Source: Acidobacteriota bacterium (GTDB lineage Bacteria; Acidobacteriota; Terriglobia; Acidiferrales; UBA7541). From it: a DNA stretch of 35,654 nt. The stretch is from the NCBI GenBank assembly GCA_003223255.1, contig QHYJ01000194.1, positions 1 to 35,654 on the forward strand, in the 5' to 3' direction. Of the stretch, positions 2,799 through 18,756 are shown in pieces. Numbering within the stretch: the stretch's first letter is position 1; each line of letters begins with the position of its first letter. The notes beneath the pieces are model-generated. The model was not told the origin of the DNA, searched no databases, and saw only the letters and a program-made list of their open reading frames with translations. Made by a program: the position numbers and the translations under genes.

Positions 2799-2990
2799 TC
2801 AGGACAAAAAATTAGAGAGATCGGATTGCAGGATGCAGCCACGCAGTTTTTCTCGAGAGGTTCGCACCCTGTTGATCGAGCGGATGACGTCTTTCATCAA
2901 CTCGTCAACGTTCAGCGGGGAGCCATTGGCGAGTTCTCGTTTGGCCAGGGACCAAACACCTTCGTCGGGATTAAGCTCCGGAGCGTAGGG
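2799..2990 (-). mobile_element. IS630-family transposase, C-terminal remnant
   Basis: This stretch encodes about 63 residues typical of the end of an IS630 (Tc1/mariner-like DDE) transposase: the block PYAPELNPDEGVW, holding the third acidic catalytic residue, then a Lys/Arg-rich C-terminal helix region, ending at a TGA at 2799-2801. The rest of the transposase, including the first two catalytic Asp residues, is absent. It is joined in frame to the end of the truncated permease at about 2990/2991, so the two form one continuous reading frame. A small inverted repeat (TGCAT-n5-ATGCA, 2780-2794) lies just beyond the stop. It could be part of the old element end, but no matching terminal repeat is seen on the other side. 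Confidence 0.8.
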
Positions 2991-5115
2991 AATTCCAATT
3001 TCTTGCGTTCTTCGCGTGGTCGTGTAGGCCAGTACGCTGTAGACGCCGATGGTCACCAGCACCAATCCGATGGCCCCAAAAATAGTCATCAGGAAAAACG
3101 CAAAACGCGGTCCCGCGAAGGAAAACTGGCCGATGTAGCCTTCCAGCGTTCCCGTCAACGTCAGAGCCACGTTCCGGTCTGTGGCCCAAATCTCCTTTTC
3201 CACGGCGTTCAACATGGTCATCGGTTCTTTTTCCGTGCGCACCAGGATTCCGCGGAACGCCGAGCCCGTCACTGTGTAAGGTACCCAGATTTCCGGTTGA
3301 ATCGGCTCTTGCAGCCTCTTTCACAGGATCTTCAAATTGTTCCAGTTGTGCAATGCGAATCTGTTGACCAATGGGATTGTCGTTCTCCAGATACTTCCGC
3401 ACAAAGGTTTGGTTCACGACCGCCAGCTTCCGCGCTCCGTTGACTTCGGCTTCCGTGAACGGCCTTCCCGCCGCGAACTGAATCTTGAGCACCGGAAAAT
3501 ATCCCTCGCTGCACAATTGAAACATCGCATCCCATTTCTCGGAGTGCGATTTACCCGGAATCTCGATGTCGCTCGGAATTCCTCCATAGGGGGGTAGCGT
3601 GCTCGTCTCCGTCGCTTCCATAACGCCCGGCAAAGCCTTCAGTCTCTGCAGCAGCGGCCTGTAAAACCCCGCCACTTGAGCCGCGGTTTTGTAGCGCTCC
3701 ACGGGCAAAGGAAGCCTGGCTACCAAGACGTGATCGGGCCGCAATCCCAGCCTCACGTCGCGCAGCGCCACAAAACTTCGCATCAGCAGCCCCGCGGCAA
3801 CCAACAGCGTCAGCGAAAGCCCCACTTCCAGCACCACCAGCGCATCGCGCAATCGTCCGTGGCGGAATCCGCCGCTGATTCCTTTGCCGCTATCGCGCAG
3901 CGGTTCGTTCACGTCCTTGCGTACCGCTTGCAACGCCGGAACCAGTCCAAATATCAGCGCGGTCAGCACCCCTACGCCCAAAGTAAACAGCCACACCCGC
4001 GTATTCAGCTGGATCACGGCTTCGGCAGGAATAATGTTCTGCGGCATCAGGGCTACCAGAGACTTCAGCCCTCCCCATGCCAGGAGTGTCCCTACCGCCG
4101 CGCCGCCCATCGCCAGGATCAGGCTTTCTACCAGCAACTGACGAAGCAATCTCCCGCGGTTCGCGCCCAACGCGGCGCGGATCGCGAACTCCTTCTCCCG
4201 GGTCGTCGCGCGGGCCAGCAACAAATTCGCGACGTTGCCGCACCCAATCAGCAGCAGCAATCCCACCGCGGCCAATACAATGAAAAGAGTAGTCTTGAAT
4301 TGGCCCACCACGAGGTTCGTCAGCGACTCCAAGTGCACGGTGAAATGCTTTGGATAATCCTTGGGGTACACTTTTGCCAGCCGGTTGGCCACGACCGTAA
4401 GGTCCGCTTCCGCTTCCTTCATTGAGATGCCCGGCTTCAAATGCCCAAGCAGGAACCAGTACTGCGGAAACGCCCCGGCCACCGCCGTGGTCGCCGTGGC
4501 GCGCTCCGGCTTCTTCGGGATCCACATTTCCGCGTCGCCCCAAGCAAAGCGGGGCGGCATGATCCCGACTAGCGTCCGCGGCTGGTCATTTAATATAAAA
4601 GTTTTGTTAATGATCGCGGGATCTGCGCCAAAACTCTTCACCCACGTCTTGTAGCGCAGCACGAAGACCGGTGGCGCGCCCGGTTCGTAATCCGCGGGTT
4701 GCATGACGCGTCCCAATAATGCGGGCATGCCCAAGAATTCAAACGTTCCGGGTGTTACGTAGTTTGCATTGAAACGCAGCGTGCCTTCTCCCGCGCGGTA
4801 AAGCACATCCAGATTGTCGTTGGCGATCACGCGGTCAAATACACGATTCTGCTCGAGGTAATCCAAGAATTCCGGCCCGCTGAACCCTGCCCGCCCACCG
4901 GGCTCATTCCGTTCGGTGTCATGGATTTGCACGGACATGAAGCGCGGCGCATCCGGATAGGGGAAGGGTTGCAGCATGATGTTATCGATGACGCTGAAGA
5001 TGGCCGTGGACGCGCCGATCCCTAGCGCTAGCGTAACGATCGCGACCGCAGCAAATCCCGGCGTCTTCCCTAGGTTCCGCAACGCGTACCGGATGTCCTG
5101 CCTCAGCGTTTCCAT
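2991..5115 (-). pseudogene. ADOP-type MacB/FtsX-like ABC permease, frameshifted and truncated
   Basis: Remnant of an acidobacterial orphan permease of the MacB/FtsX superfamily, an inner-membrane protein with a large periplasmic core. Intact parts: the N-terminal ADOP signature METLRQDIRYALRNL, first membrane segment, MacB-like periplasmic domain, a FtsX block (GNVANLLLARATTREKEFAIR), several membrane helices, and a second periplasmic core. After the codons for DPVKEA (about 3315) the frame shifts. The continuation QEPIQPEIWVPYT is in another frame and runs through the last-but-one membrane helix to RTQEIGI at 2991. Comparison with the family pattern suggests about 16-17 residues were also lost at the shift. 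The final FtsX helices are replaced by the IS630 tail. Two independent lesions make a functional product unlikely. Confidence 0.88.
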
Positions 5116-14872: not shown

Positions 14873-15661
14873 ATGGCGCTGGAAAATTGCACACTCTGCA
14901 GAGGTACGGGATGGAAGCTGGTGCCGCGGCCCGATGGCGCCGTGGGCAAAGTGGCCGTGCGGTGCGACTGCGGCATCGAAGAGCGCTCGACGCGCGTAGT
15001 GGAACGCGCCCGCATTCCCAAGCGCTACGAACACTGCGATTTTGAGAGTTACAGCACCGACGTCGGATCTACGCAACCGCAAAGACATTCCTTGCAGCAG
15101 GCAAAATTGTCGGCGCAGGCCTTCGTCCGCGATTACCCGGGCTCATCGGAGAAGGGTCTGCTCTTCATGGGGGCTTCTGGCGTTGGGAAGACCCACTTGG
15201 CGGTGGCGGCGCTCAAAGAGCTTATTCAGCGCGGGCATGCGGGATTGTTTTGCGATTACCGAGAGCTGCTGAAGGAAATTCAGGCAAGCTACAATCCCGC
15301 GAGCGAGTCCACAGAAATGCGAATCCTGGAGCCGATTCGAAGTGTGGAGATCCTGGTGCTCGACGACCTCGGGGCCAGCAAGCCGTCGGATTGGGTGCGC
15401 GACATCGTTGGCATTGTCCTGAACGCGCGCTACAACGAAAGCCGCACAACGATTGTCACCAGCAGCTATCTGGACAACCCGGCATCGGAGGGTGAAGCTA
15501 CCCGGCTTCCCACGGGGAAACTCATGCCGCCGACGCGCGAAGATACGCTGGAACAGCGGATTGGAAGCCGCATGCGCTCCCGGTTGTACGAGATGTGCCG
15601 CACCGTCGAGATTTTCGCCCCGGATTTTCGCCGCGAGAAGACGCAGGCCGGACGAGCATAA
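14873..15661 (+). CDS. DnaC/IstB-like AAA+ ATPase
   Basis: 262-aa AAA+ protein of the DnaC/DnaI/IstB group, which load replicative helicases or assist transposases. The N-terminus has a zinc-knuckle-like arrangement CxxC (C6, C9) and CxC (C31, C33); the first pair reads CTLCRGTG, like a DnaJ zinc repeat. The ATPase core contains Walker A GASGVGKT (100-107), Walker B ILVLDDLG (160-167), a sensor-type TSS segment, and a C-terminal arginine-rich RIGSRMRSRLYE block that would hold the Arg finger. No transposase lies beside it, so a helicase-loader role is more likely than an IstB role. The start is chosen at the ATG directly before the first Cys pair; the ribosome-binding site is poor. Confidence 0.82.
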   Translation: MALENCTLCRGTGWKLVPRPDGAVGKVAVRCDCGIEERSTRVVERARIPKRYEHCDFESYSTDVGSTQPQRHSLQQAKLSAQAFVRDYPGSSEKGLLFMGASGVGKTHLAVAALKELIQRGHAGLFCDYRELLKEIQASYNPASESTEMRILEPIRSVEILVLDDLGASKPSDWVRDIVGIVLNARYNESRTTIVTSSYLDNPASEGEATRLPTGKLMPPTREDTLEQRIGSRMRSRLYEMCRTVEIFAPDFRREKTQAGRA

Positions 15662-15700
15662 CGCGCCTGTCTAAAGAGAAGTCCTTTTCTTCATCCGCCA

Positions 15701-15969
15701 TGAGAATGCCGGGCCAACCTATTTCCGCTCTATTGAGCGGGGGCGACCGGCGGTCGATCGGTCGCTCCAACGAAGTGGTGAAACTCGTTTTGCGTGCCCC
15801 GCGGCGCTTTGCGGAACTCCTCCAATGTCTTTGGAGCGACGATCCGATGATAACCATGCGGGCGGCGGACGCCGCAGAAAAGGTCTCCGCCGTTAAGCCG
15901 GAGCTGCTAAAACCATACAAAGCGGAATTGCTTGGTCTGCTCACGGAAACGGGATACTACGAAGCGTAG
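15701..15969 (+). CDS. Short HEAT-like protein, probably C-terminally truncated
   Basis: From the ATG at 15701 an 89-aa protein begins ISALLSGGDRRSIGRSNEVV and continues with helix-pair sequence (MRAADAAEKV, ELLKPYKAELL), which resembles the first HEAT-type repeats of a longer scaffold protein. The frame ends soon afterwards at a TAG inside a strong hairpin, and no other frame carries on the repeats. I infer that it is a shortened or decayed member of this group. It could bind partner proteins but has no enzymatic motif. It follows the DnaC/IstB-like gene by 39 bp in the same direction. Confidence 0.55.
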
Positions 15970-15975
15970 TCCCGT
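15949..15975 (+). terminator. Hairpin overlapping the end of the HEAT-like gene
   Basis: An interrupted inverted repeat: ACGGGA/TCCCGT (6 bp) outside and CTACG/CGTAG (5 bp) inside, with a 2-nt bulge and a 3-nt loop. The TAG stop lies in its right arm. Only TTTC follows, so it is a weak intrinsic terminator at best, but the stem is strong and placed just before the S1 promoter. Confidence 0.4.
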
Positions 15976-15982
15976 AGTTTCA

Positions 15983-16012
15983 TTGACATAGGAGCGCGGC
16001 GGCGAGTATCCT
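15983..16012 (+). promoter_or_regulatory. Sigma70-type promoter of the S1 gene
   Basis: A perfect -35 TTGACA (15983-15988) and a -10 TATCCT (16007-16012) are spaced by 18 bp, 170 bp before the chosen S1 start. The leader of about 165 nt is long enough for the S1 autoregulation known in enterobacteria. No specific structure was identified. Confidence 0.6.
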
Positions 16013-16184
16013 TTTTAAGTTGCAGCGTACTCCGTGACGTTCGCAGCATTTCCTGTTTGGCCGTGTCCCGGTCAATCACCTTGCACTAGACCCTAGTAGG
16101 GATTCCGCAAGGAATTTATGCGACAAAATGTGGGGCCGCCGAGCGGCTGCCACTTGGGAAGTAATCTTCTGGAGGCCAACAACC

Positions 16185-17771
16185 ATGTTTCCTGACCACG
16201 AGAACCCGTCGAACGCGGCTGCCGCCGTAACCGCACCGAGCAGCGCCGAAGCAAGCACCCCTGAAGTCAGTTCTCCTCCTGTAACCGAACAAGCTGAATC
16301 GACTCCGGCTCCTGCGCCGACACCAGCGCGTGAAGTGCCCGTGTCGACAGAGGTAGCGGCGACGCCGAATGGGGCGGAGGCGCACAGCGAAGCTTCCGCA
16401 GCAGATGCGGAAGCGGCCGCGGCTGCCGAAGAGGCTGCCGGCTCGGAAGAGATGAGCAAGTTGATGCAGGAGTTCGAGGAGAAGCAGGAAGCCGCTGCTG
16501 GGCACGAGGTGGTCGAAGTCAAGGTTGTGGCCTACACCGAGCACGGCGTGGTGGTGGACCTGGGTGGAAAAACGGAGGGGCTGATTCCCGCCGCGGAATT
16601 CGCGGAGACGGAAATCCCGCGGCCGGACCCGAACGCAACGATCGAAGTGCAGCGCTCCGGCGAACACAAAGACGGCTACGAAATCGTTTCCTACCAAAAA
16701 GTGCTGCGCCGCCGGACCTGGGAAAAAATCGACGCCGTCTTCAAGGCGAAAGAAACCCTCACGGGCAAAGTCGTGGACCGCATTAAGGGCGGGCTGGTGG
16801 TGGACATCGGCGTGCGCGCGTTCCTGCCAGGTTCGCAGTACGACTTGAAGCCCACGCAGAATCTCGACGAACTGCTCGGCACGGAAGTGCAGGTGCGCGT
16901 CACCAAGTTGAACCGCCGGCGTGGCAACGTCGTGGTCAGCCGCCGCGTAATTCTCGAAGAAGAGCTGCACGCCAAGCGCGCGGCGTTGATGGACACGCTG
17001 AGCGAAGGCCAGATCGTTCACGGGCACGTGAAGAACGTCACCGACTATGGCGCATTCGTGGACTTGGGCGGAATCGACGGCTTGCTGCACTTGACGGACT
17101 TGAGCTGGGGCCGCGTGAAGCATCCTTTCGACGTGGTCAAGCCGGAGCAAGAACTCGAGGTCATGATTTTGAAGTTCGACAAGGAAAAGCAGCGCATTTC
17201 GCTGGGGCTGAAACAATTGACACCGGATCCCTGGGTGGGCGCTGCAGAAAAGTATCCTGCCGGCGGCAAGGTTCAGGGAAAAATCGTAGGCATCGTGGAC
17301 TATGGCGTATTTGTCGAGCTGGAACAAGGCATCGAAGGCTTGGTGCACGTTTCGGAGATGAGTTGGAACAAGAAAGTGCAGCACCCGTCGAAGCTGGCCA
17401 AGGTCGGCGACGTGGTGGACGTGGTGGTGCTCGACATCAAACCAAGCGACCGGCGCGTTTCGCTGGGAATGAAACAAGCGCAGCCCGATCCGTGGCTGGT
17501 GACTGCCGAAAAATATCCCGTTGGAACCGTCATCACCGGAAAAGTCCGTAACATCGCGGAGTTCGGCGCGTTCGTGGAAATCGAGGATGGCTTTGACGGG
17601 CTCGTTCACGTCGGCGACGTGAGCTGGACGGGCCGCGTAAAGAATCCGCACGAAGTGTTCAAGAAAGGTGAGCCAGTCACGGCGAAGGTTCTGAAAATTG
17701 ATGCGGAGAACCGCCGCGTGTCGCTGGGCATGAAACAGGTCAACGACATCTGGGGCGATTGCAAATCGTAA
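16185..17771 (+). CDS. rpsA: Ribosomal protein S1, S1 domains 1-5 (first part of a split gene)
   Basis: 30S-subunit protein that binds mRNA during initiation. From the ATG at 16185 (GGAGG 9 nt upstream) the 528-aa product has an Ala/Glu-rich low-complexity N-terminal extension of about 95 residues. Five S1 domains follow, recognisable by repeats such as VTDYGAFVDLGG, VDYGVFVELEQG and IAEFGAFVEIEDG. The later domains carry the RRVSLGMKQ-type ends typical of S1. The frame then ends abruptly in WGDCKS at 17771, where the family normally continues through a short linker into a sixth domain. That domain lies in the -1 frame directly downstream. A lost linker of about 7 residues plus a frame change is the simplest explanation. 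Products with five S1 domains can still be functional in other bacteria. Confidence 0.9.
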   Translation: MFPDHENPSNAAAAVTAPSSAEASTPEVSSPPVTEQAESTPAPAPTPAREVPVSTEVAATPNGAEAHSEASAADAEAAAAAEEAAGSEEMSKLMQEFEEKQEAAAGHEVVEVKVVAYTEHGVVVDLGGKTEGLIPAAEFAETEIPRPDPNATIEVQRSGEHKDGYEIVSYQKVLRRRTWEKIDAVFKAKETLTGKVVDRIKGGLVVDIGVRAFLPGSQYDLKPTQNLDELLGTEVQVRVTKLNRRRGNVVVSRRVILEEELHAKRAALMDTLSEGQIVHGHVKNVTDYGAFVDLGGIDGLLHLTDLSWGRVKHPFDVVKPEQELEVMILKFDKEKQRISLGLKQLTPDPWVGAAEKYPAGGKVQGKIVGIVDYGVFVELEQGIEGLVHVSEMSWNKKVQHPSKLAKVGDVVDVVVLDIKPSDRRVSLGMKQAQPDPWLVTAEKYPVGTVITGKVRNIAEFGAFVEIEDGFDGLVHVGDVSWTGRVKNPHEVFKKGEPVTAKVLKIDAENRRVSLGMKQVNDIWGDCKS

Positions 17772-18124
17772 AAGGCAAGGTTTCACGCATCGCCACGTTT
17801 GGTGCATTCGTCGAACTGGGCGAAAACATCGAAGCGCTCTGCCACAACACGGAAATCGAAGACCGCCGCCGGCGCGACGAAGGCATGGGCGGCTACCGCC
17901 CGACCAGCGGTCCGCTGAAGAGCGCAGGCCCTCTCGAGCCGGGCAAGGAGTACGATTTCAAGATCATTAAGATCAGCCCGGAGACGCGGCGAATCGGCTT
18001 GAGCTATCGCGCGGCGGTGAAACAGCTCGAGCGCAAGGAAATCGAACAGTATCGGTCGGCGTCGAAGTCCTCGTCGACGGCGACGATTGGAGATGCGCTG
18101 AAGTCCAAGCTGTCGGCGCGCTAG
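17759..18124 (+). CDS. Ribosomal protein S1, sixth S1 domain (second part of the split gene)
   Basis: This frame, -1 relative to the first part and overlapping it by 13 nt, encodes IVKGKVSRIATFGAFVELG followed by an S1 fold and a Ser/Lys-rich tail ending SKLSAR. It is clearly the last S1 domain of the same gene. A TTG at 17759 could allow a separate start, but no ribosome-binding site precedes it. I see no canonical slippery heptamer in the overlap. Either the gene is truly broken, leaving a working five-domain S1, or the sequence is short of bases here. It should be read together with the preceding entry. Confidence 0.8.
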   Translation: MQIVKGKVSRIATFGAFVELGENIEALCHNTEIEDRRRRDEGMGGYRPTSGPLKSAGPLEPGKEYDFKIIKISPETRRIGLSYRAAVKQLERKEIEQYRSASKSSSTATIGDALKSKLSAR

Positions 18125-18315
18125 ATTATGGAAGCCTGACCCGGGGAACGGCTTTCATAATTTCATTTACCTGCGGGTCATTTTAGTGTAGGAAGGGGAG
18201 CAATCCGGCGGCCAGCCAATCCCCTGTAAGCCCATACGCTTCATTGCACTGGGGCTAAGTGAAGCGACGGGAAGAGCTTAGGCGGTCCGGTGCAGGATTG
18301 CGTGACGAGGCATAG

Positions 18316-18654
18316 ATGACCAAGCAAACGACATCGACACTGACGAAGGCCGACCTCATCGAGGAAGTTCTGAATGTCACTGAACTTCCCCGCAAAGAAT
18401 CCGAAACGATTGTCGAAACCATCTTCGAAAGCATCATCGCGGCTCTGCAAAAGGGCGGAAAGATCGAGATTCGCGGCTTCGGCAGCTTCCGCACGCGCGA
18501 GCGCCGCGGACGCATGGGGCGCAATCCGAAGACCGGCGAAAAAGTGGAAGTGCCCGCGAAGAAAATTCCCTACTTCAAGCCCAGCAAAGAGCTGAAAGAT
18601 TTTGTGAACAATGCGACCGCCCATACTGCCGCCGGAGATTCCCAGAACAGTTAG
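18316..18654 (+). CDS. HU/IHF-family DNA-binding protein
   Basis: 112-aa nucleoid protein that bends DNA as a dimer. It has the full family pattern: TKADLIEEV at the N-terminal helices, IEIRGFGSF, and the DNA-contacting arm with RMGRNPKTGEKV ending at KIPYFKPSKELKD. The Arg in RGFGSF and the NPKTGE loop are conserved, and its pattern is closer to IHF-beta than HU. A short Ala/Asn-rich tail follows. GAGG lies just upstream of the ATG. It comes about 190 bp after the S1 gene, an order (rpsA then ihfB-like) also common in proteobacteria. Partner identity (homodimer or heterodimer) cannot be judged. Confidence 0.92.
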   Translation: MTKQTTSTLTKADLIEEVLNVTELPRKESETIVETIFESIIAALQKGGKIEIRGFGSFRTRERRGRMGRNPKTGEKVEVPAKKIPYFKPSKELKDFVNNATAHTAAGDSQNS

Positions 18655-18756
18655 CCCAGTTGAAATCTCTTGGCAGTTCCCTTCCTTCGCGCGATTCGGG
18701 TTTTCTCTTTCCGTAATCCTGTGCGCGCAGTTTGGCAGGCAAAAGGAAACATCGCG

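Follow-up and report, generated by a model that had tools for sequence, protein, structure and literature searches.

Genes at the rpsA locus

The window (the whole 35,654-nucleotide stretch analysed here) is the entire contig C139 of a draft genome, G000, which comprises 6.66 Mb in 428 contigs and is 97.3% complete with 2.1% contamination. Two overlapping open reading frames (ORFs) on the forward strand together encode 30S ribosomal protein S1. The first (16185..17771) is the N-terminal part of rpsA with five S1 domains; it begins at 16185 with MFPDHEN, its product ends in NDIWGDCKS, and its TAA stop lies at 17769-17771. It was identified by same-genus orthologues, by Pfam S1, which matched five stretches of it, and by the rpsA equivalog model NCBIfam NF004952, with a score of 587 bits (cut-off 524). 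The second ORF (17759..18124, also on the forward strand) encodes the C-terminal part, S1 domain 6 and the tail, in the -1 frame; Pfam S1 matched it once (4.9e-14), in agreement with its identity to S1 of the closest relative, G012. Its earliest start codon is TTG. The two ORFs overlap by 13 nt (17759-17771), and the six domains are divided five plus one, with no single frame in the window holding all of them. The earlier note on this DNA had described a main S1 frame ending in WGDCKS and a sixth domain in the -1 frame, overlapping it by 13 nt, and these ORF coordinates confirm both descriptions.

S1 of G012 aligned across both frames, with residues 1-519 matching the first (89% identity) and residues 527-646 the second (97% identity). 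Given this alignment over both frames, chance is excluded as the source of the break in the S1 frame at the linker. At about 17761 the window is without 22 nt that same-genus relatives have, equal to seven linker codons plus one base; the loss is visible in alignment, was found against all seven loci measured and agrees with the earlier estimate of about 7 residues, or about 22 nt. The junction, at 17757..17763 on the forward strand, is probably a scaffold join written without Ns. When domain 6 was compared with that of G012, 24 codon differences were silent and 4 were replacements; over the same length of domain 5 the counts were 23 and 2. By this codon comparison, domain 6 shows no sign of decay. 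A second or undamaged S1 copy was sought in the window's genome; outside the one rpsA locus only short S1-domain matches were found.

Upstream of rpsA lies a DnaC/IstB-like ATPase gene (14873-15661, forward strand; Pfam IstB_IS21, 1.1e-12), possibly a helicase loader rather than an insertion sequence gene. Downstream is a gene for an HU-type DNA-binding protein (18316..18654, forward strand), which matched the whole 90-position profile of Pfam Bac_DNA_binding (1.5e-32). No Rfam family reached its gathering score in the window.

S1 in same-genus relatives

The S1 search covered the window's genome and 60 relatives. S1 was found in 34 of the 36 same-genus genomes, the window's own counted; the other two (G002 and G021) gave a short match only. 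Alignment of S1 from close relatives, a check that the earlier note had proposed, showed that the linker is read through in one frame and at equal length in 31 of the 33 other same-genus genomes with detectable S1, against 22 nt missing in the window. The 31 readable genomes consist of 27 of the 29 loci L004-L032, together with G008, G013, G018 and G022, whose S1 is cut elsewhere. The two remaining loci are both cut at this place. At L015 (G027), the contig ends within S1 ahead of the linker, so the linker is unreadable there. At L026 (G001), an explicit 'NN' scaffold gap stands in the same S1 linker, and domain 6 is thrown into another frame. G001 is therefore a second draft with the same apparent S1 split, with the gap visible. 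The G001 site (L026 3027) is the same place as L192 3081 in PMOV01000071.1, and its two Ns stand for far more than two bases. A natural five-domain S1 common to the lineage, with domain 6 absent, was not seen, as 31 of 33 genomes continue into domain 6 and the other two are cut there.

S1 was cut by contig ends or Ns in 8 of the 33 other same-genus genomes (G001, G008, G013, G015, G018, G022, G026 and G027). The interruption in G013 involves an 80-N gap, and the cut in G027 falls in a stretch that includes the linker. These eight were not used as evidence that S1 is unusually prone to breaks in this genus. An automatic count that had 51 of 55 loci 'spanning' the junction was discarded: some loci (for example L191, L192 and L195) were out-of-register matches between repeated domains, many were distant S1 proteins, and L207 has a stop that lies close to the end of its contig and not at the linker. 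When the GTDB r220 genomes were scanned with a degenerate pattern of the junction, there were 0 matches, in a set from which the window's own genome was perhaps left out.

Undersized gaps in the draft

Outside the window, 444 kb of G000 contained 16 runs of N, 2-247 bases long, showing that the draft had been scaffolded. By comparison, 728 kb of the relative G025 contained zero N runs. With the first set of relatives' loci, both flanks were matched for two runs only. For calibration, four gaps of G000 were compared with ten relatives, and three were measurable. A gap written as 2 Ns corresponded to 55 nt in the one relative that matched; a 17-N gap corresponded to 53-54 nt in six relatives; and a 32-N gap corresponded to 89-90 nt, likewise in six. 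The fourth gap (10 Ns) was left out of the calibration since the relatives differ in length there. All three measurable gaps were thus undersized, with a shortfall of 36-58 nt, enough to hide a gap of 22 nt. Among the longer N runs, some may mark sequence that was withheld and not a gap at all; this is excluded for the three measured ones, as their length changes. A real gap smaller than the 36-58 nt shortfall would be expected to be written without any N, as a clean loss of some tens of bases.

Losses without Ns elsewhere in the draft

Four N-free regions of G000, namely the window and three 20-kb stretches (from C130, C141 and C3), were scanned for stretches that at least three relatives share at equal length and that the query is without, with coverage defined by at least two other genomes. 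Four N-free losses were found in 73,715 covered bases (22, 47, 65 and 63 nt), none of them in the 20 kb of C141. The same scan with G025, G032, G019 and G012 each as query found 0 sites in 378,745 covered bases, a figure in which some overlap was counted twice. Similar losses therefore occur elsewhere in this draft and were absent from the comparable relatives. By simple proportion, the chance of all four sites falling in G000 is 0.0007, which is too favourable because two of them (22 and 47 nt) had been found before the scan and more loci around the 47-nt site were added after it had been seen. Outside the window, the comparison is 2 sites in 51,957 covered bases against 0 in 299,963, about 0.02 by simple proportion.

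The 65-nt loss lies in an amidohydrolase gene (G000:C130 16514; L083). A further loss of 60 nt lies 813 nt away in the same gene (C130 17327), as measured against G032 and G025 and, by coordinates, G019. In G032 this gene is a continuous open frame of 565 aa. The 63-nt loss lies in a gene for an M20-type peptidase (G000:C3 9459; L055), where it was seen against three relatives and the frame is kept. Over all eight sites, three with Ns and five without, 22-65 bases are missing at each. The 60- and 63-nt losses are multiples of three, as natural in-frame deletions would be too. A protein-level comparison of arbitrary contigs of G000 and G025 for breaks had been replaced by the regional scan, there being almost no orthologous overlap outside the window; its nine break candidates in G000 were mostly short antisense or low-identity matches.

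A MacB/FtsX-type permease gene on the reverse strand (2971..5115) has the 47-nt loss, at about 3313. The loss is N-free and was found against 7/7 relatives measured from the flanks, and the homologous frame changes after it. For G019 the gapped alignment gave 32 nt and the flanks gave 47 nt; the latter value was used. The 3' end of the gene has been replaced by the C-terminal remnant of a DDE_3-type transposase (PYAPELNPDEGVW..., window 2802-2990, reverse strand), which matched Pfam at 24.9 bits, below the cut-off of 28.6. Copies with 97% identity occur in several G025 contigs, two of these copies starting at base 1 of a contig, and a 68% copy occurs in C404 of the window's own genome. The permease may be a real pseudogene that has undergone a real deletion as part of its decay. 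Because the transposase remnant replaces the 3' end of the gene, the 47-nt loss is not clean evidence for an assembly artefact.

Origin of the S1 split

We consider the S1 split to be an assembly artefact, with a probability of about 0.9; in the organism itself S1 is most likely an ordinary six-domain protein. Read-pair scaffolding probably joined two contigs that both end in rpsA and set too small a size for the gap between them. An estimate close to zero would have led to no Ns being written, so that the flanks abut and 22 real bases are lost; such a loss would shift the rpsA frame and create the false stop. We infer this join, and the exact assembler step, from the missing 22 nt, the intact orthologues, the undersized N gaps and the other N-free losses. 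The junction was placed from assembled sequence rather than from reads. That IDBA-UD assembled the draft is only suggested. The methods of a grassland soil study name IDBA-UD together with correction of scaffolding errors (PMC6784897), and the sample names of several close relatives follow the pattern of that study. However, four such relatives, those most covered, had zero N runs in the stretches examined, so another pipeline may have produced the window's genome.

The earlier note had left three possibilities: the lineage manages with an S1 of five domains and the sixth detached, the two parts are joined by frameshifting, or there is an error in the sequence. The last is now well supported by the undersized gaps and the other N-free losses. 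The detached domain received no positive support, given 31 continuous S1 genes. A real 22-bp deletion in this strain, leaving a five-domain S1, is improbable, though some points speak for it; domain 6 would then be lost altogether or translated on its own through translational coupling. E. coli without domain 6, or without domains 5 and 6, is viable and grows more slowly (PMC3858243), and five-domain S1 proteins make up 1.1% of S1 records, in other phyla (PMC6705787). As such E. coli strains are viable and five-domain S1 proteins exist, the essentiality of S1 is not enough to exclude a real loss. In the window, the TTG overlaps the S1 stop, with GGGG / TGGGGCGA before it, and reinitiation at that TTG is conceivable. 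A slightly narrower version, of a soil acidobacterium whose only S1 gene is really without the 22 bp and whose single message yields, besides the five-domain S1, a free domain-6 protein started at the TTG, would be a shade less probable still. Against a real deletion, the split is absent from all 31 same-genus genomes readable across the linker, and the same draft contains other N-free losses and undersized gaps. The lack of decay in domain 6 also speaks against it, although this would fit a very recent deletion as well. A real five-domain S1 is biologically possible; it is not needed here.

The other two explanations are weaker. Coexisting strains, one perhaps with a deletion, could have had their sequences joined by the assembler, so that the window would carry a minority allele or a chimera; we think this very improbable. 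S1 is sometimes hard to assemble, as the 8/33 cut genes illustrate, but by a rough estimate the number of contigs would in itself be enough to leave some such genes cut by chance. Moreover, both flanks of the junction match the same relatives at similar identity (93% on the left and 91% on the right for G012), with no sign of two sources. The least probable of all is programmed -1 frameshifting that joins the two parts into one S1. The domain-6 frame is indeed the -1 frame and overlaps the first ORF by those 13 nt. However, no slippery heptamer of the form X XXY YYZ starts between 17699, where the domain-6 frame has its nearest stop upstream, and 17765, and Rfam gave no match at gathering score in 15600-18700. 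A frameshift fusion would still be without the seven linker residues, and the two-frame layout is not conserved, with 0 of 31 readable same-genus orthologues needing a frameshift. Frameshifting, as the earlier note had offered it, is disfavoured by the missing heptamer and the missing linker.

If the split were true, it would be a natural test of the role of S1 domain 6 and would provide a natural detached S1 domain. Read as an assembly artefact, it is a warning: the draft is good on the usual checks, yet conserved genes in it have apparently lost 22-65 bases with no N to mark the place. Where this draft or a similarly scaffolded one suggests a frame break, a split gene or a pseudogene, a comparison with relatives should come before acceptance.

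Comparison with known systems

In metagenome-assembled genomes, scaffold gaps left uncorrected and local assembly errors lead to wrong protein sequences in databases (Chen et al. 2020, PMC7111523), and the S1 break looks like an instance of such errors, with the gap hidden by the absence of an N mark. In the part of that article drawn on here, the errors described are unsupported consensus sequence, wrong numbers of repeats and Ns inserted where the sequences in fact overlap. What was measured in this draft is gaps that are undersized or N-free.

Taken at face value, the window resembles the E. coli rpsA strains deleted for domain 6 or for domains 5 and 6, in having an S1 without domain 6 (PMC3858243). 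The E. coli deletions are engineered and lack a second ORF carrying domain 6, whereas the window has such an ORF. The domain count of the first ORF equals that of natural five-domain S1 proteins. Those proteins are described for whole groups such as Deinococcus-Thermus (PMC6705787); here, in contrast, the 31 same-genus relatives readable at the junction continue into domain 6, and in the window itself domain 6 is still present downstream. Compared with the six-domain S1 represented by NF004952, all six domains are present in the window, but the reading frame is interrupted after domain 5 and 22 nt are missing.
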